A stretch of 34,974 bases of DNA from Fibrobacteria bacterium (lineage in GTDB: Bacteria; Fibrobacterota; Fibrobacteria; UBA11236): contig JAJNBB010000039.1 of NCBI GenBank assembly GCA_021155885.1, positions 1 to 34,974 of the forward strand. The letters are read 5' to 3'. The number at the start of each line of letters is the position of its first letter. The stretch's first letter is position 1. This document shows positions 22,702 through 30,494 of this stretch, one piece after another. Position numbers and translations under genes: made by a program. A model generated the notes under the pieces. That model was not told the origin of the DNA, did not search any database, and worked only from the letters and a program-made list of their open reading frames with translations.

Positions 22702-23538
22702 CTACCCCGCGTACTCCCCGCGAAACACTTCCACCGCCGGCCCCGTCATCTGCACGGATCCCGTGCCGTCGTATTCCAGCAGCAAATCCCCGCCGGTGAG
22801 ATGGATGGTCAGGCGCTCGCCGGTGAGCCCGAGGCGGTGCCCGATGGCCGCGACGGCGGAGGCGCCCGTGCCGCAGGCCCAGGTTTCCCCGGAGCCGCGC
22901 TCCCAGGTGCGCTGGATCACCTCGTTCCTCGACACGATCTGCACGAACTCCACGTTCACGCGGCGCGGGAACAGGGGGTGGTTCTCGATCAGGGGGCCGA
23001 TCGTGGTCACCGGAAAATTCCCCACGTCCTCGACGTAGACGACGCAATGGGGATTCCCCATCGACACCGAGGAGAACTCGAAGGTTTGCCCCGCCACTTC
23101 GATCTTCCGGCGCAGCACTTCGGGCGCGTCGATGGTGGTGGGGATCTTCAGGCCCTCGAAAATGGGCGCGCCCATGTCGATGCGCACGCTCTCGGCGTTG
23201 CCGTCCTTGTCGCGCGTCACGATGTGCGCGGTGCGCCAGCCGGCGCCCGTCATCAGCTTCAGCTCGTCGCGGCCCCGGGCATAGGTGTCATGCACGTACT
23301 TCGCCACGCAGCGGATGCCGTTGCCGCACATTTCCGAGCTCGATCCGTCGGCGTTGTACATGTCCATCTCGGCGTCCGCGCCGGCGTAGGGGCGGATCAC
23401 GATCAGGCCGTCGCCGCCCACCCCGAAATGCCGGTGGGACACCTTCTTCGCCAGTTCCACGGCGTCTCCCACCTTCTCCTGGAAGGCGTCCACGTAGACG
23501 TAATCGTTGCCCGTGCCCTGCATCTTGATAAAGCGCAT
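22702..23538 (-). CDS. dapF: Diaminopimelate epimerase
   Basis: It converts LL- to meso-diaminopimelate for lysine and peptidoglycan synthesis by a two-base cysteine mechanism. I chose ATG 23538 (MRFIKMQGTGNDY), which has the Shine-Dalgarno TAGGAGAGA; a longer in-frame start overlaps the upstream stop. The protein has 278 residues. The two catalytic cysteines sit in NADGSSSEMCGNG (Cys71) and GSGETWACGTGA (Cys222), both with their conserved surroundings. GNPHCVVYVED is also typical. It lies 8 bases after the LptE-like gene. Confidence 0.96.
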   Translation of the reverse strand: MRFIKMQGTGNDYVYVDAFQEKVGDAVELAKKVSHRHFGVGGDGLIVIRPYAGADAEMDMYNADGSSSEMCGNGIRCVAKYVHDTYARGRDELKLMTGAGWRTAHIVTRDKDGNAESVRIDMGAPIFEGLKIPTTIDAPEVLRRKIEVAGQTFEFSSVSMGNPHCVVYVEDVGNFPVTTIGPLIENHPLFPRRVNVEFVQIVSRNEVIQRTWERGSGETWACGTGASAVAAIGHRLGLTGERLTIHLTGGDLLLEYDGTGSVQMTGPAVEVFRGEYAG

Positions 23539-23546
23539 TCTCTCTC

Positions 23547-24032
23547 CTACCACGCCAAAACGGTCTTGTCCAGAATCGTCGTCACCAGGTTCTCGATGGC
23601 GCGCGCCCGTCCGATTTCCTCGGTCTCCCCTTTTTCGGGGGCATAGGCCCCGTACCCGGGGATTTGCGCGTCGCTGTACAGGGTGTCTCCGCGCACGCGG
23701 TCGATGAACAGGGCCTTGAACAATATGTCCACCCGCCAGGTCGTGACGTTGCTGCCGGCGGTGCTTTGCGGGGTGTGCGAATACTGCAGCACCGTGCCGA
23801 AAAGCTCGGCATCGCCGTTCTGGTTGACCTGGCGCAAATTGCTGCGGCTGCGAAAGCCGTCCTGAAGCCCGCGCCCGACGCGGTCCGGCAGCGCCGCTTC
23901 CAAAGTGCGGTTCTCGACCGGATGAATCTGCAGGGTGCGCAGGTGCGGCGGCAAGGTGCTGCCGGAAAAGCTGTAGCAGCCGAGACAGAGGGCAGCCGCG
24001 AAGAGGGCCGACAGGAAGGCAAGGACGCGCAT
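23547..24032 (-). CDS. lptE: LptE-like lipopolysaccharide-assembly lipoprotein
   Basis: LptE plugs the LptD barrel that places lipopolysaccharide in the outer membrane. The 161-residue protein starts at ATG 24032. The signal peptide ends in the lipobox LCLGC (Cys19). The mature part starts YSFSGSTLPPHLRTLQIHPVENRTLEAALPDRVGRGLQDGF, split here by no gaps, which matches the start of PF04390-type LptE in FCB bacteria. It goes on with a strand-rich half (AELFGTVLQYSHTPQS, TWRVDILFKALFIDR). Sequence conservation in this family is low, so the name rests on the N-terminal pattern and length. It implies an outer membrane with lipopolysaccharide. Confidence 0.75.
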   Translation of the reverse strand: MRVLAFLSALFAAALCLGCYSFSGSTLPPHLRTLQIHPVENRTLEAALPDRVGRGLQDGFRSRSNLRQVNQNGDAELFGTVLQYSHTPQSTAGSNVTTWRVDILFKALFIDRVRGDTLYSDAQIPGYGAYAPEKGETEEIGRARAIENLVTTILDKTVLAW

Positions 24033-24037
24033 GGGCC

Positions 24038-26578
24038 CTAAAAATAGCTCTCGGTGGCGGCCCGCAAATCCTCGAGATTCTTGACGGTTTCGGGCTCGGC
24101 CCCCAGCGAACGCGCCGCCTGCGCCCCCAGCCCCTCGGCCGCGGCGCGCGCGTCCAGCAACCACAGAACGCGGGGACCGGGGCCGTCGTGGGCCAGGCCC
24201 GCCCATTCCTTCTTCAGGCGCACGATCGCCGCGGGGTTCCACAATTCGGCGCGGGCGTTCCGTCCCTCGGCCTTCAGGATCTCGCCGCGCGCTTCCAGCA
24301 CGGGATCATGGGCGGGAGGCAGCGGCATGCGCGTGATCAGCGCCAGGGCGGGACCGCGGCCCTCGCTGTCCTTGAGTCCGGGAATGCCTTCGGTGGCGAG
24401 CACCCAGCCCCCCCGCGCCGAAGCGAACAACCGCAGCACCGCGTCGCGGTTTCCATCCACATGCTGCGCCCAGCAGGGCGTGCCTTCCGGCAGGACGGCC
24501 TTCAGGGCGTGATGCACGGTGCGCAGGGCGCCTTGCGAGGGAAAGAACAGGAAAACGCCGCGATCGGAAAACGGCTGCGCGGATTCCACGAGAAAACGGG
24601 CGAAGGTTTCGGGGGGCTCGGCGGAAGAAAAACCGGGAGCGAAGGGAGCCATCAGGAAGCGCGGAGGAGGCGCGGTGCGGGCGGATTGAAAGGCGCGGAG
24701 GCGCGCGCCCTCGGCGTCCCCCTCGAGGACGTCCAATCCAAGCGCGCGGGAGAACCAGTCGACATCGCCCCGGGCTCCGGTCAACAGCGCCGGAGAAAGG
24801 AACACTCCCGCCCCGAACCATTCGCGCAACCTGGTTCCCAGGACGCCGCGTTCCAACGGGGTCGCCCGCAAGGTCGCCTTGTGCGGGTTCGTGACGTCCT
24901 CGAAGGCGTGGACCGCCTCGGCGTCGGCGGCCTCGCAAAGGGCTTCGAAGTCCCGGCGGAAGGCGCGCAGGCGTTCCGCCACGCGCCGCGGTTCCGGCGT
25001 GCGCTCCCCGGGGACTCCCGACGCCTCGAGCCCTTCCAGCAAGCTCTCGTTCGCGCGCAAGGCCTCCAGCACGGGCGCCGGATCGGCGCCGAACGCCAGG
25101 GCGAAAGGCCCGGAAAACCGCACGCGCGAATCCCCTGCCGGGCGCTGCTTCGAAGCCTGCCGCCCTGCCTTCTGCAGGAACTTCTGGAACTGGCGTTCCG
25201 GTTCGAGCCACGCGTCGTTCGCCCCGTCGAAAAGCTGCAGCGCGAGACGCAGGCGGAACAGCGTGACATCGCGGCCGAAGGCGCGCAGGAGGGCTTCGGG
25301 GAGGCGGTGCGCGCCGGCCACGACCAGCGAGTCGCAAGACGGCAGCAGGCCGCCTTCGCGGCGGAGGTGCGCGCCCAGCGCGGCATGCGTGACCAGGATC
25401 ACCCCGGCCGATTCGGCGGCGGCGCGCGCGGCCGCGGCGGCGGGATCCTCCGCATACGTTTCGCAGGCGATGCGCAGCGCCGTCAGGCGGCTGCGCTCGG
25501 GGGAAAACCCGCGTCCGTCCGCGAGCAAGGCCCCGGGGGTCTGGTCGGCCCACGCCACCAGCGGAAGCAGCGCCGCCCGCTCCTCCGGAGGCAGCCCCGT
25601 GGGATCGGCGGCCAGCGCCGCCAAGCGCGCGCGGTTCAGGTAACCCGCCGGTTCCGCCAGGGCCGCCACGCGGACGGAGGAGGAACGCGCGCGCGCGGAT
25701 TTCCGCAGGGCGTTCCAAGCATAGGCATCGGGAAGGGCCAGCAGCACGCGCTGCCCGCGGGCGGCCGCCTGCGCGGCGGCCTCGAAGGCGGCTCCCGCGT
25801 CGTCCAGGCCCGGGGGAGTTTCCAGCGCCAGCCACCCTTCGGAGCTCAAGGCTTCGGTGGCGGCCTCCAGGACGGCCTCCGGAACCGGCTCCACGGCGGG
25901 CACGTCCGCGAGATCGGGGAAGACGAATTCGGGGGAAGCCGCGGGAACGGACGAGGTCCGCGCAGGGGGAATTTCCGCCGCGAATACGCGGCCCCAATCG
26001 GGGAGATCCGCGGCGAGCCGCGCGAGGTCTTCCTGCGCCGTTCCGGAAAGCGTCGCGCGCAAAAGATCCTGCGCCGCCACGAACACGAAACCCGCGCGGC
26101 GCGCGTCGGGCAAGGCCCGATGCTCCGCGTCGCGCGGCACCCGCAGGCGTTCGGCCAGCGCGTCCAAACGGTGACTGTCCCAGGCGGGCCAGGCGATGCG
26201 CGACATCAGGAGCGAGTCGATCCAGGGGCCGGGAACGGGAGCGAGGCTCTCGGCCTCAAGCAATCGCCGCACGAAGTGGGCGTCGAACTCGGCGTTGTGC
26301 GCCACCAGCGGCAGGTCGCCGGCGAAGGCGAGAAAGGCGCGGGCCGTATCCGCCGCGGGCGGCGCAGCCTCCAGCTCCTCCGTCGTCAGGCCCGTGATCA
26401 GGCGCGAAACGGGCGAAAGCGGCCGGCCGGGATTCACCAGGGCCGCGAAATCGGCGGCGGGCCGGCCGTCCTCGAAGCGCACCGCGGCCAGTTCGATCAG
26501 GCGGTCATGCTCGAAGTCGAGTCCCGTGGTTTCGGTATCCACGGCGACGAAGGAGCGCAGGGCGTGAGGATAAGACAT
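24038..26578 (-). CDS. DEDDh 3'-5' exonuclease fused to a DinG-type helicase lacking its catalytic motifs
   Basis: An 846-residue protein; I chose ATG 26578 (MSYPHALRSF) because the longer TTG start lies in a repeat. Numbering from 11 residues further upstream, the exonuclease spans about 18-185. It has all DEDDh residues: DTETTG (Asp24, Glu26), HNAEFD (Asp109), and EHRALPDA (His163, Asp168). It thus resembles DnaQ/epsilon and the N-terminus of Firmicute DinG. The rest aligns with DinG/XPD-like helicases in layout, but the key motifs are gone. The Walker A position reads ETPPGLDDA instead of GTGKT. The DEAH box reads VVAGAHRLPEAL. The motif VI region (MPLPPAHDPVLEARGEI ... LKKEWAGLAHDGP) lacks the QxxGRxIR arginines. 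No iron-sulfur cysteine set is visible. Probably an active nuclease with a non-ATPase DNA-binding scaffold. It is 5 bases upstream of lptE. Confidence 0.8.
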   Translation of the reverse strand: MSYPHALRSFVAVDTETTGLDFEHDRLIELAAVRFEDGRPAADFAALVNPGRPLSPVSRLITGLTTEELEAAPPAADTARAFLAFAGDLPLVAHNAEFDAHFVRRLLEAESLAPVPGPWIDSLLMSRIAWPAWDSHRLDALAERLRVPRDAEHRALPDARRAGFVFVAAQDLLRATLSGTAQEDLARLAADLPDWGRVFAAEIPPARTSSVPAASPEFVFPDLADVPAVEPVPEAVLEAATEALSSEGWLALETPPGLDDAGAAFEAAAQAAARGQRVLLALPDAYAWNALRKSARARSSSVRVAALAEPAGYLNRARLAALAADPTGLPPEERAALLPLVAWADQTPGALLADGRGFSPERSRLTALRIACETYAEDPAAAAARAAAESAGVILVTHAALGAHLRREGGLLPSCDSLVVAGAHRLPEALLRAFGRDVTLFRLRLALQLFDGANDAWLEPERQFQKFLQKAGRQASKQRPAGDSRVRFSGPFALAFGADPAPVLEALRANESLLEGLEASGVPGERTPEPRRVAERLRAFRRDFEALCEAADAEAVHAFEDVTNPHKATLRATPLERGVLGTRLREWFGAGVFLSPALLTGARGDVDWFSRALGLDVLEGDAEGARLRAFQSARTAPPPRFLMAPFAPGFSSAEPPETFARFLVESAQPFSDRGVFLFFPSQGALRTVHHALKAVLPEGTPCWAQHVDGNRDAVLRLFASARGGWVLATEGIPGLKDSEGRGPALALITRMPLPPAHDPVLEARGEILKAEGRNARAELWNPAAIVRLKKEWAGLAHDGPGPRVLWLLDARAAAEGLGAQAARSLGAEPETVKNLEDLRAATESYF

Positions 26579-26595
26579 CGGGGAAAAATAACCGG

Positions 26596-26628
26596 ACAAT
26601 GGCCGCAAAAGATCGCAGACAAGAAAAC
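26596..26628. repeat. Second copy of the ACAATGGCCGCAAAAGA element
   Basis: The first 17 bases (26596-26612) equal 21759-21775, and the following CGCA...AAGAAAAC is similar. It fills most of the gap between the exonuclease start and the DUF2007-like gene. Confidence 0.65.
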
Positions 26629-26637
26629 AAAAACGGG

Positions 26638-27156
26638 TTACGACTCGCCCTCTTCGTCCGGGGCCGAAACGACGTCAACGAGATGAAAAAACTCGCGAAG
26701 GGCGGGGCTCATCATCAGGCGGCGCGAAGCGTCGGGAAGGAAGGGCTCGAGGCCGCGCAGGAGAAAGACGGAGACTTCGGCGCGTCCCGAAAGGCGCAAG
26801 GCGTCCAGGAGGTTCTCGTACTGGGCCCGGTAGAAAAAGATGTGCGTCCCCTCTTCGTCCTGCTCGTCGAGAAGCGATTGCAGCCAGGCGGCGATCGCGT
26901 CGCGCTCCTCGTCGTTGCACCGGATCTCCACGACCTCCTCGGCGGGCTCCTCCTCGTTTTCGGAAAGCACGATTCCCTGCAGGATGCGGTTCGCCTTGTC
27001 GGCATCGGCCTCGGGAACGAAGAGCGCGAAGCGCTCGGAGCCCTCGTTCGCGGGGCCGGCCCAGCAGGCCACGCCGTGGCGCCCCAGGTATTTTTCAAGA
27101 CGCTCCAGCGTCTCGCGCTCGAGGCTCGATGCCAGGGTGATGAAGCCGCCTTCCAT
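26638..27156 (-). CDS. Hypothetical protein with DUF2007-like N-terminus
   Basis: A 172-residue acidic, soluble protein. Residues 1-60 (FITLASSLERETLERLEKYL, then GVACWAG ... LFVPEADADKANRIL) resemble the alpha-beta fold of DUF2007 (putative signal-transducing) proteins, where a short strand-helix unit ends in a DxxxAxxIL helix. The remainder has long helices and no known motif. The match is a weak pattern judgement. It lies between the Ig-like lipoprotein and the exonuclease genes in the leftward string. Confidence 0.6.
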   Translation of the reverse strand: MEGGFITLASSLERETLERLEKYLGRHGVACWAGPANEGSERFALFVPEADADKANRILQGIVLSENEEEPAEEVVEIRCNDEERDAIAAWLQSLLDEQDEEGTHIFFYRAQYENLLDALRLSGRAEVSVFLLRGLEPFLPDASRRLMMSPALREFFHLVDVVSAPDEEGES

Positions 27157-27197: not shown

Positions 27198-29003
27198 TCA
27201 TGGGCGCGCCTTCTCCAACGGCCCGGTCAAGTCGGTCGTGACGCCCGCCTTCACCTCCACCGAATCCAGCGCCAAGGCATGAGGCTCCTGGGGAATCCAG
27301 GGCTTCAGGTAACCCGGATTCCACAAGCCGTCCCGATCGTCATCCCGAAAGGCGAAGAGCCGGTAGCGGCCCGCCGGGATCTCCGCGGAGGGGGCCGGAT
27401 ACGACTCTCTTCCACCCTCGTCGAGCCGGAAGGTCCATCCCGCCCACCGGGCCGGAGGCGTGAAACGAACCGAGCCCACCGTGGCGGAATCCAGGAAAGA
27501 AAGGGAGGCCAGGCTGCGCGCAGCGGAATCCCCGGGAGCGGGCCGCAGCCGGAGCTCCAGCCGCGCGCCCCGGGGAGGCGCCTTCTTCAATTGTAATGAA
27601 AACGTGAAATTATTTACAATAGTGATCTCATGGAGTTGAGTCAGCGTGTCGACGCGGGTCTCGAGGCGCTCGGTCAGCGTCTTCCAGCGCGACGGCGTCA
27701 GCGGCAGATTGCTCGCGACGGTGAAGCCCGTGCCCGGCGGCGCCCAGGTCAGCAGGCGTGGCAGGCTCGTGAGCGCGGAAGCCTGGATAAAGGAAAATTT
27801 CCACGCGGCGGTGTCGGAGGACGCCGAACCTACGGTGAAGGACACCGAGGTGTCGGGAAGGTTCCGCGGGTCGCGGCCCGGGTAATCCGGACGCCCCCGC
27901 ATCTCGACGCGGTACGCGCCCGCGCGCAGCGGCGGGGTCTCCAGCATCCAGGCTTCGTCGAGGGCGCTCCACCCCGCCGCCGACACCGGCAGGGAACCCG
28001 CCGGGTCGGCCGCCGCGCCGGCCGGAAGGATCCGGTAGCGTCCCGGCTCGGCGGCGCGCGCGGGATGCGGCGGGCGCGAGAATTCGAGGCGCACTCTTCC
28101 CGGCACGCCCGCCGGCGCGGCCGCGGAATCGGGCGCCGCGTCCGCGACGAAGTCCGCCTTGACGATGCGCAGCGGCAAAGTGTCGGCGGGAGCGGTCCGC
28201 AACACCTGCTCCTCGGCGCGCGGCCGCAGGGCGAGCGAAAGCGTTCCCGGGGCGGCGTTCTCGAAGCCGAAGTCGTAGGTGAAATTTCCGTTCACGTCCT
28301 CGAAGGCGAGCAGGGAATACTCGCCCTGCGCGACCGAGTCGAACCGGAAGCGTCCCAGCGAATCGGCCAGCGCCAGGAACGCGGGGAGCTCCCGCCAGGG
28401 TTCGGGCAGGGACCCCGGCTGAAAGTTTTCCTCGCGCGCCGACAGGGGCTCCACGGACGCGCGGTTCCCGGCGCGGTACAGCGCGACCATGCGGTTTCCC
28501 TTGGGATCCGCCGACAGAACCGTCCCGGACAGCGAGCCGACGTCGACCTCCGCGCCGGTGGAAAAGCGCAGCACGAACGGTTTGCCCGCGCGGACGCCGT
28601 GCAGGTCCTGTAGCGAGGGAAGCACCGTGACTTGGTACGAGGTGTTCGCGCGCCATCCTCCGGCGGCCTCGGAGGGTCGCACCTGCAATTTGTTGCCCTC
28701 GGCCGCGACTTGCAACCGGCCGCGCACGGGCGGCGAGACGAAGGCCTGGTTGCGCGCCGCGGTGCGGTCGATCCATTCCGAAAACTGGAAAACGACCGGG
28801 GCGTCGAGGGGAACGTTGCGGGCGCCGGGCGCCGGGTACACGGCGAGGACCCGGGGAGCCTGGGTGTCCACGGGGCCCCCGGAGGGCGGTTCGATATGCG
28901 CGCACTTCCAGGCAACGAAAGAGGCCGCGAGGGCCAGCGCCCCCGTCGACAAGCGCCGCGCCAGGCCGGGTGCCGCGCCCGCGAATCCCGGTTTCCGCGC
29001 CAT
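27198..29003 (-). CDS. Ig-like-domain envelope protein, probable lipoprotein
   Basis: A 601-residue exported protein. After a hydrophobic segment (LSTGALALAASFVAWKC) comes AHIEPPSGGPVDTQAPRVLAVYPAPGARNVPLDAPVVFQFSEWID. That is the opening of the Bacteroidetes-type Ig-like proteins whose lipobox cysteine precedes PPTGGPKDTxPP (SbsA/Big_5 Ig fold). The Cys near residue 34 is then the likely lipid site, although WKC is an unusual lipobox. Further beta domains follow, including SFTVGSASSD and the C-terminal AGRYRLFAFRDDDRDGLWNPG, a carboxypeptidase-regulatory-like unit also seen at YSLLAFEDVNGNFTYDFG. Its start codon overlaps the lepB stop (TGATG), so translation is coupled to lepB. Confidence 0.78.
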   Translation of the reverse strand: MARKPGFAGAAPGLARRLSTGALALAASFVAWKCAHIEPPSGGPVDTQAPRVLAVYPAPGARNVPLDAPVVFQFSEWIDRTAARNQAFVSPPVRGRLQVAAEGNKLQVRPSEAAGGWRANTSYQVTVLPSLQDLHGVRAGKPFVLRFSTGAEVDVGSLSGTVLSADPKGNRMVALYRAGNRASVEPLSAREENFQPGSLPEPWRELPAFLALADSLGRFRFDSVAQGEYSLLAFEDVNGNFTYDFGFENAAPGTLSLALRPRAEEQVLRTAPADTLPLRIVKADFVADAAPDSAAAPAGVPGRVRLEFSRPPHPARAAEPGRYRILPAGAAADPAGSLPVSAAGWSALDEAWMLETPPLRAGAYRVEMRGRPDYPGRDPRNLPDTSVSFTVGSASSDTAAWKFSFIQASALTSLPRLLTWAPPGTGFTVASNLPLTPSRWKTLTERLETRVDTLTQLHEITIVNNFTFSLQLKKAPPRGARLELRLRPAPGDSAARSLASLSFLDSATVGSVRFTPPARWAGWTFRLDEGGRESYPAPSAEIPAGRYRLFAFRDDDRDGLWNPGYLKPWIPQEPHALALDSVEVKAGVTTDLTGPLEKARP

Positions 29004-30307
29004 CAGTCGATCAGCCGTCCGAGGCGGGTCCAGCGGATCTTGAAGGGGACCGTGAACCAGCTGAGGGGATTGCCGAAGCGGAACCCGCCGTCTTCATTCT
29101 CGAAGGAGAAGTAAATGATCAGGGCCTTGGCCTTGACGTTGTTGCGCGAGAGCAGGCCCCAATACCGGCTGTCGGAGGAGTTGTCGCGATTGTCGCCCAT
29201 CATGAAGAAGCTCGTCTTTTTCACGGTGTACCGGTCCGTCGTTTTCCCGTCGATCACCAGCGAGGCCCGGATGCGGCGGCCGCCGCCGAGGCTTTGCTGG
29301 AACGACTCGATGTATGTGCCCAGATAATACTCGTTGAGCTCCTCCCGCCGGCCGCCCTGGGGACGCACGGCCGCCGGCATCAGGTCGGACACGCGCAGGT
29401 ATCCCGTGCGCGCGACCTCCTGGAGGCGGCGGAACGGGACGTTGCGGGCTTCCAGGTATTCGCTTCCGGCTTCGCCGCGCTGCTGCAGCGAAACGCCGAG
29501 GTAAAAGAGGGCCGCCTGCCGGTTGCGGTCGCGGAAGTCCGCGCGCAGGGTGTCGAAGACGAACCCGTTGTCGAGCGCGGAATCCTTCCACAGGTCCAGC
29601 TTCAGTTCCACCTTGCTGTCGGGATTTTCCTGCACCGCCAGCGAGCGGATCCAGGCGGCGTAGGCAAGCGAGATCGTATCGAAGGCTATGGTTTCTCCGG
29701 GTAGCGGCAGGCGCAGGCGCAGGTGGTCGCGCACGGGATCGTCCTGGCGGAAGGTTCCCGTTCCGGCCGCGTATAGGCCCTCGGGAGGCAAGGGAACCTC
29801 GCGGCCGTCCACGCGCACGCGCGTGCCCTCCACTTCCAAGGTTTGCCCGCTCGTGGCCACCGCGCGCTTGATGAAGTCCTTGGGGGCGTACCAAACCAGG
29901 CGGTTTTCGCCCTCGGCCGGGGTCCGGTCCCAATACAGGTTCCCGAACAAGAACAGGTTCGCCAGAAAGCGGTAACGTTCGGGTTTCCCCTCCGGGTAAA
30001 ACGGATCCCCGGGGTAACGGAAGATGAGCACGTCGCCGGGTTTCGGCTCGGTGAGCGCGGGCAGGCGCTTGTGCGTGAACGGAACCGGAGAACCGTAGAT
30101 GAACTTGAGCCCCAGGAGAAAGTCGCCGATGAGCAAGGAGCGCTCCATGGAGGCGGAGGGAATCTTGAAGGCCTGCACCGCGAACTGGATGAAAACCAGC
30201 GCCAAGGCGATGGGCACGACGAACTCCCGCGTGAAGGCGCGAAGCCCGCGCCGCCAGGGGCTTCGCGATTCCTGGGGATCCTGCGACTTTTTGGGACTGG
30301 AGGCCAT
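29003..30307 (-). CDS. lepB: Signal peptidase I
   Basis: It cleaves signal peptides of exported proteins at the outer face of the inner membrane by a Ser-Lys dyad. I chose ATG 30307 with Shine-Dalgarno AAGGG, six bases upstream; this gives 434 residues. A single membrane span (VVPIALALVFIQFAVQAF) precedes the catalytic-serine box IPSASMERSL (Ser near 53). The lysine box is DFIKRAVATSGQ (Lys near 148), and box E is MMGDNRDNSSDSRYWG. A large insert of about 150 residues separates the lysine box from box E. That makes it much longer than E. coli LepB in that segment, a feature also seen in FCB-group enzymes. First gene of the leftward string. Confidence 0.94.
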   Translation of the reverse strand: MASSPKKSQDPQESRSPWRRGLRAFTREFVVPIALALVFIQFAVQAFKIPSASMERSLLIGDFLLGLKFIYGSPVPFTHKRLPALTEPKPGDVLIFRYPGDPFYPEGKPERYRFLANLFLFGNLYWDRTPAEGENRLVWYAPKDFIKRAVATSGQTLEVEGTRVRVDGREVPLPPEGLYAAGTGTFRQDDPVRDHLRLRLPLPGETIAFDTISLAYAAWIRSLAVQENPDSKVELKLDLWKDSALDNGFVFDTLRADFRDRNRQAALFYLGVSLQQRGEAGSEYLEARNVPFRRLQEVARTGYLRVSDLMPAAVRPQGGRREELNEYYLGTYIESFQQSLGGGRRIRASLVIDGKTTDRYTVKKTSFFMMGDNRDNSSDSRYWGLLSRNNVKAKALIIYFSFENEDGGFRFGNPLSWFTVPFKIRWTRLGRLID

Positions 30308-30494
30308 GAGCAACCCTTCGTGTTTCCGCCCGTTTTTCGCGGACGGAAAGAGGTCTGGAAGATACTAAAGGGAGGGAACTTGCTAGATTAGGGTGCGGGC
30401 GTCCCGGAGGGTCCTCCTCGGGCTTTCGAAGCGCGGGGGATTTTCCGGGACGGCTCCCGGCCCACACCGAACCCGGGCCGCAAGGAGACAACGC

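Follow-up and report, generated by a model that had tools for sequence, protein, structure and literature searches.

What use could an exonuclease make of a helicase that appears to have lost its ATPase? The question was raised by one gene of the window, the whole stretch of 34,974 nucleotides analysed here, from the genome of a Fibrobacteria bacterium (G000; 2.59 Mb, a draft of 101 contigs, 87.5% complete). That genome belongs to family f1 of the class Fibrobacteria, phylum Fibrobacterota, in which two genera were sampled: g1, the genus of the window (G000-G003), and g2. The gene lies on the minus strand at positions 24038..26578, with its ATG at 26578 and its TAG at 24038-24040, and is intact, being open for 846 codons and encoding 846 aa, so the full-length protein of the original prediction was borne out. 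The operon-like string with lepB, lptE and dapF that had been proposed around it also proved to be real. All on the minus strand, it runs from lepB (signal peptidase, Pfam; 29003..30313) through a Big_5 Ig-like protein (Pfam; 27198..29003) and Orf172 (26638..27156), the upstream neighbour of the gene in question, to lptE (Pfam LptE; 23547..24032), whose ATG is 5 bp downstream of that gene's stop, and dapF (Pfam DAP_epimerase; 22702..23538). A promoter and terminator scan gave nothing decisive.

The protein begins with a DEDDh 3'-5' exonuclease domain (residues 9-173, 26060..26554), in which the Pfam RNase_T match spans residues 11-162 (E 3.9e-25). As had been claimed, the DEDDh residues are all kept: D14, E16, D99, H153 and D158 are present and are invariant in 16 aligned relatives, and the five occur in every ExoDinG of a 46-protein comparison to which E. 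coli DinG was added. Of 24 nuclease columns that are invariant in 23 intact ExoDinGs, 22 were kept in g1, and the window protein is probably an active nuclease. A variable linker (residues 176-245, 25844..26053; 31-38% identity within the genus, with low pLDDT at 202-229) separates this domain from the helicase half, the later part of which comprises an Arch-like helical region (about residues 451-600, 24779..25228), placed by AlphaFold secondary structure and DinG alignment, and a second RecA-like motor domain (HD2/MD2; about residues 601-846, 24041..24778), placed by the model and a Pfam Helicase_C_2 match at 672-789 (33.9 bits, cut-off 25.3), the boundaries of both regions being approximate. 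The AlphaFold2 model of the protein (18 sequences; mean pLDDT 78.5, pTM 0.77) had as its best PDB match in Foldseek S. aureus DinG (8zef), in a full-length alignment (E 7.5e-33, TM 0.72), followed by E. coli DinG (6fwr, E 2.6e-20), CasDinG and XPD, and the best Foldseek and HMM matches were to DinG/XPD and DnaQ/PolC types. The fold is that of DinG, and an unrelated one was ruled out. The NCBIfam models for DnaQ/DinG fusions scored below their cut-offs (PRK08074, 155.5 versus 789 bits; TIGR01407, 143.9 versus 547.7 bits), by itself a weak criterion, since the motif-intact Fibrobacter orthologue also falls below both (520 and 454.6 bits). The window protein has the domain order of the family named ExoDinG in a review of DinG proteins (PMC11981726), i.e., a DEDDh exonuclease and a DinG/XPD body, here with a strongly diverged helicase half.

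Within that half the order of the DinG segments was kept, as predicted, e.g., in the P-motif block (RMPLPPAHDPVLEA, residues 750-763, 24290..24331), where RMPLPPAHDP is retained at 750-759 and R750 and L753 align with K801 and F804 of S. aureus DinG. The predicted replacement of the Walker A, DEAH-box and arginine-finger positions was equally clear in an alignment that included E. coli DinG and intact relatives: EAPTGSGKS of Walker A (motif I) has become ETPPGLDDA (residues 253-261, 25796..25822), DEAH of motif II AGAH (421-424, 25307..25318), SAT of motif III SPA, and RQGLGRLLR of motif VI, with its arginine finger, KKEWAGLAH (789-797, 24188..24214). ATP hydrolysis by the window protein is, on this evidence, probably absent. 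No g1 member retains the Walker A loop, the DE of DEAH, SAT, the motif V glycine or motif VI. The losses extend further, to the former Fe-S region (pseudo-FeS; residues 326-395, 25394..25603), where none of the four cysteine positions is kept in G000; a DEAD_2 (PF06733) search for an Fe-S domain was uninformative, as it matched 0 of 12 genomes, including the intact G014. The DNA-contact residues were defined from work on S. aureus (PMC12345164) and E. coli (PMC6300356). The arginine equivalent to E. coli DinG R117 is gone in g1, as are the equivalents of the S. aureus stacking residues F804, F823 and Y864, with leucine at the F804 and Y864 positions, and arginine or lysine at that of F823, in 4/4 species. 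Two of the five ssDNA-contact residues of the second motor domain (S. aureus K801, F804, F823, R858 and Y864) were kept, as R750 (K801) and R811 (R858), and the P-motif prolines and an invariant QHxDG block also survive. The helicase part carries no net positive charge, a property uninformative on DNA binding. A loss confined to the ATPase in g1 was rejected: among columns invariant in the 23 intact ExoDinGs, g1 kept 5/22 for the ATPase versus 17/51 for the rest of the helicase (p=0.42), and 4/14 for Fe-S and nucleic-acid contacts. In the window's genus the loss of the ATPase was thus, as far as the alignment tells, accompanied by a wider loss of Fe-S and ssDNA-contact residues.

Recent decay was rejected as an explanation, with all the motifs lost genus-wide, and the Walker A lysine and motif VI family-wide. 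Motif VI is missing in 10/10 f1 genomes and the Walker A lysine in 9/9 that are readable at that motif, the contig of G008 carrying only a fragment of the gene. The g2 genomes have arginine for the Walker lysine (GTGR or GSGR) and QELNR for QGLGR of motif VI, and 3/5 keep DEAH. Every ATPase residue was kept in the sampled Fibrobacteraceae-type members of f3, in f4 (G014) and in seven other sampled families. The order lepB - Ig-like - (orf172) - ExoDinG - lptE - dapF is common to f1, f4, in which the ATPase is intact, and f5 (in one f5 genome lepB lies beyond the contig end), and lepB - Ig - ExoDinG occurs in Fibrobacter too; the conserved order therefore marks the gene as a true orthologue, with its motor disabled in situ. 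A search of the window genome for a second, intact DinG was negative, as only one DinG-type locus was found, and therefore no intact copy covers for the dead ExoDinG. With few exceptions elsewhere in the phylum, the scored genomes have one DinG-type helicase match each or none. Three of them, G012 and G088 (each 96% complete) and G010 (79%), gave neither a Helicase_C_2 nor a dead-helicase match, and in G012 and G010 only DnaQ-size exonucleases were found; on that ground ExoDinG appears to be dispensable in some lineages.

The window's family is one of several with such a loss. ATPase motifs were also lost in f5 (2 genomes), in genera g11 and g14 of the Fibrimonadaceae (10 genomes analysed), in f3/g15 (G161) and, outside the Fibrobacterota, in one Chloroflexi genome (CFX4, locus L076:5989-8706), whose ExoDinG keeps all Fe-S cysteines and DNA contacts but is disrupted in Walker A and in motifs V and VI. 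On a gene tree built without the motif columns, parsimony needed four changes, of which the starred branches force three. A single ancestral loss for all ATPase-dead Fibrobacteria was rejected (p-AU 0.00075), mainly because G161 groups with the intact G055 (support 91), and a clade of f1, f5 and Fibrimonadaceae was not (p 0.093), so that three losses can be taken as secure from the gene tree by itself, those of CFX4, of G161 and of all the others. The grounds for a fourth and a fifth are taxonomic, as f3 contains intact members as well as the Fibrimonadaceae, and lie also in motifs that differ in state, DEAH being kept in three g2 genomes of f1 and lost in f5. The gene tree therefore gives a minimum of three losses of the ATPase, and taxonomy raises it to four or more. 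Among the same invariant columns, the Fibrimonadaceae kept 6/22 for the ATPase versus 13/14 for Fe-S and nucleic-acid contacts (p=0.0008), g15 5/22 and 13/14 (6e-5), f5 3/22 and 11/14 (0.015) and CFX4 8/22 and 13/14; loss targeted at the ATPase was supported in the first three and not significant in CFX4 (0.075). The S. aureus-type ssDNA contacts, counting lysine and arginine alike as kept, are 5/5 in all four. Judged by these residues, an ATPase lost with the grip on nucleic acid kept describes the sister lineages, i.e., Fibrimonadaceae, f3/g15, f5 and CFX4.

In the Fibrimonadaceae the two halves have also parted company, the nuclease (192-202 aa) and the dead helicase (about 606-648 aa) being separate, adjacent genes, with that of the helicase immediately after that of the nuclease (split pairs at L049:1906-4319, L048:5188-7633 and L133-L140), with Fe-S cysteines and DNA contacts kept. 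At the junction in G045, stop and start overlap as ATGA behind GAGG, and in G057 the junction is ATGTCTGA behind AGAGGGG; by their predicted starts, the other pairs overlap or lie from a few to about 70 bases apart. A 607-aa dead helicase was modelled (pLDDT 86.6) as a complete DinG fold that matches E. coli DinG (E 1.6e-31).

How, then, might such a protein work? Our favoured explanation, which we hold on balance, is that of an ATP-independent exonuclease whose former motor serves as a scaffold. The ancestor would have been an ATP-dependent ExoDinG, with a DEDDh exonuclease and a DinG/XPD helicase in one chain; the present enzyme would act 3'-5' on the ends of single-stranded DNA and/or RNA, and the former motor would be a rigid scaffold placing the substrate, and perhaps a partner, for the nuclease. 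What the explanation builds on (the nuclease residues, the loss of the ATPase motifs, the DinG fold, orthology by synteny, purifying selection and recurrence) comes from sequence and model, and it suggests that the motor, though disused, persists as a passive scaffold that serves the nuclease. Experiments on ExoDinGs are in keeping with it: their nucleases act 3'-5' on ssDNA and RNA (PMC12525004, PMC12774634), and exonuclease activity was kept by a motif-I mutant from B. subtilis (K290A; PMC12525004) and a DEAH mutant from L. monocytogenes (E465A; PMC12774634), so that a loss of ATPase is compatible with a working nuclease. The scaffold would presumably hold the substrate, as is better supported in the sister lineages, where the Fe-S cysteines and DNA-contact residues are kept, than in g1, which kept only part of the groove; the decay of contact and Fe-S residues alongside the ATPase counts against a substrate clamp in g1. 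Of the original idea, a selected non-ATPase helicase scaffold guiding a nuclease, one part stood: the nuclease is intact, and the DinG scaffold fused to it is ATPase-dead and under selection. The surface that would guide DNA, however, is largely lost in g1, and guiding by it can only be conjectured there. More tentatively, and with slightly less than even confidence, we propose that in bacteria the ExoDinG motor has repeatedly become a nucleic-acid clamp, free of ATP and often Fe-S-bearing, that serves a DEDDh exonuclease, a counterpart of XPF, with the Fibrimonadaceae clamp a separate subunit and the genus of the window at a later stage, in which the scaffold has become lineage-specific.

Among known systems, the closest are the DinGs of S. 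aureus, B. subtilis and L. monocytogenes (8zef/9ii8), themselves ExoDinGs, which share the domain order and the DEDDh nuclease and gave the full-length fold match; the Bacillales proteins, like that of the window, have a pseudo-FeS region without cysteines. Walker A, DEAH and QGLGRLIR are present in S. aureus DinG, whereas the window protein lacks all three and most of the single-strand contacts. Reportedly, the S. aureus protein was at first presented as a helicase turned nuclease. It has since been reported to unwind DNA (PMC12345164). E. coli DinG and YoaA have the same XPD-type fold as the C-terminal part of the window protein but no nuclease domain, and are active Fe-S 5'-3' helicases, whereas the window protein has neither the cysteines nor the unwinding motifs. 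Loss of the motor as such is not new in the DinG superfamily, since the DinG-like sDinG of cyanobacteria was reported without conserved ATP-binding residues and without an Fe-S domain (PMC11981726); sDinG, from another lineage, has a shortened Arch and no exonuclease domain, unlike the window protein with its nuclease. The literature examined does not describe the combination of motor loss with an exonuclease, its recurrence or the gene fission. Parallels also exist farther afield. XPF (ERCC4) joins its nuclease to a helicase-like SF2 domain that does not hydrolyse ATP and probably aids DNA binding (PMC8710748), and AddB/RecC contains a helicase fold that has lost its motor motifs and now serves a nuclease complex by holding and scanning ssDNA (PMC4824097). 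Both may be alike in working to the dead ExoDinGs, which would be their bacterial parallel, and neither is homologous: AddB/RecC has an SF1 fold, belongs to a larger, active helicase-nuclease complex and lacks a DEDDh nuclease. The nuclease fold of XPF is ERCC4, and its SF2 branch differs from that of DinG. The comparison matters because the importance of the ExoDinG ATPase and helicase is disputed, with conflicting reports on S. aureus and mutants of B. subtilis and L. monocytogenes that keep their exonuclease. Evolution has repeated the ATPase mutation, and as most of the dead lineages kept their Fe-S cysteines and DNA contacts, the body can seemingly be useful without ATP and the clamp be separable from the motor; the dead ExoDinGs, including the physically split one, offer natural ATPase-null enzymes for testing.

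The rival that survives best would have the helicase body be a hub for protein interactions (with the replisome, ribosome-assembly intermediates or Orf172) that no longer touches nucleic acid. The loss of Fe-S and DNA-contact residues in the window's family would suit such a hub, as would the foci that B. subtilis DinG forms near DnaX (PMC12525004) and the distribution of Orf172, which adjoins ExoDinG in g1 and was found in 10/10 f1 genomes and in 0/158 other genomes examined in the phylum. Orf172, with no NCBIfam match and only sub-threshold Pfam matches, is a possible partner of the dead ExoDinG. However, its co-occurrence is confounded with membership of the family, another gene stands between the two in g2, and g1 still shows no variation at the basic R750 and R811 or at the P-motif prolines, and we consider a pure hub unlikely. 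The intervening g2 ORF (L035:4296-5993, L036:5114-6886 and L038:4250-6067) starts like a serine/threonine protein kinase (LGQGASATVYLARH).

Less probable again, and to our minds doubtful, is that the helicase part is a decaying remnant on its way out and only the nuclease matters. The even decay of the helicase column classes in g1, set against the well-kept nuclease columns, is what such a remnant might display, and G012 and G088 are without any DinG-type helicase match. There is also an apparent split between nuclease and helicase in the linker of G003, a g1 genome (L034:5075-7436, overlap GTGAATAA), seen in a single draft where a frameshift error is possible. Against it, every member with a complete gene has a full-length frame, and the window protein is foldable in its AlphaFold2 model. 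Constraint in g1 was judged from fourfold-site identity, which is near saturation and precludes a clean dN/dS: the helicase half is 55%, 50% and 48% identical to that of G000 in G001, G002 and G003, despite fourfold-site identities of 48%, 35% and 40% (35%, 30% and 31% expected at saturation). Moreover, 92 of the 179 helicase columns that are invariant in g1 differ from the intact consensus, and these would represent new conservation, not only leftover residue. By these measures the helicase half of the window's genus appears to be under purifying selection. In the f5 pair (L045, L046), where NG86/YN00 dN/dS is unreliable at such divergence and codon bias and fourfold-site identity was used, the dead helicase half is 0.69 identical versus 0.59 for the nuclease half. 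The dN/dS envisaged for the C-terminal part was obtained, by NG86/YN00, for the split Fibrimonadaceae helicases, at about 0.1 (0.07-0.13), and replaced in g1 by the fourfold-site comparison, which pointed to constraint. A dead helicase conserved as its own gene after fission is hard to explain as mere ballast, and the remnant reading is already weakened.

It is very improbable that a rebuilt, non-canonical site lets the motor go on binding or hydrolysing nucleotide. A change of lysine to arginine with the loop kept (GTGR in g2 of f1, GIGR in several Fibrimonadaceae) might allow nucleotide binding, but g1 has lost the loop together with the DE pair and arginine finger, and the P-loop was replaced differently in each species (GLDDA, RVEEH, QEDEL and KENEH), with no shared alternative. 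A sequencing or assembly error, or a chance effect of composition, might be suspected in a GC-rich window from an incomplete draft, but is scarcely conceivable: genomes of the genus and family that were assembled independently show the same losses, which refute an assembly error, the frame is open, and the flanking motifs are conserved. The high GC content is probably behind an antisense ORF of 832 codons on the plus strand (window 24188-26686) that overlaps ExoDinG.
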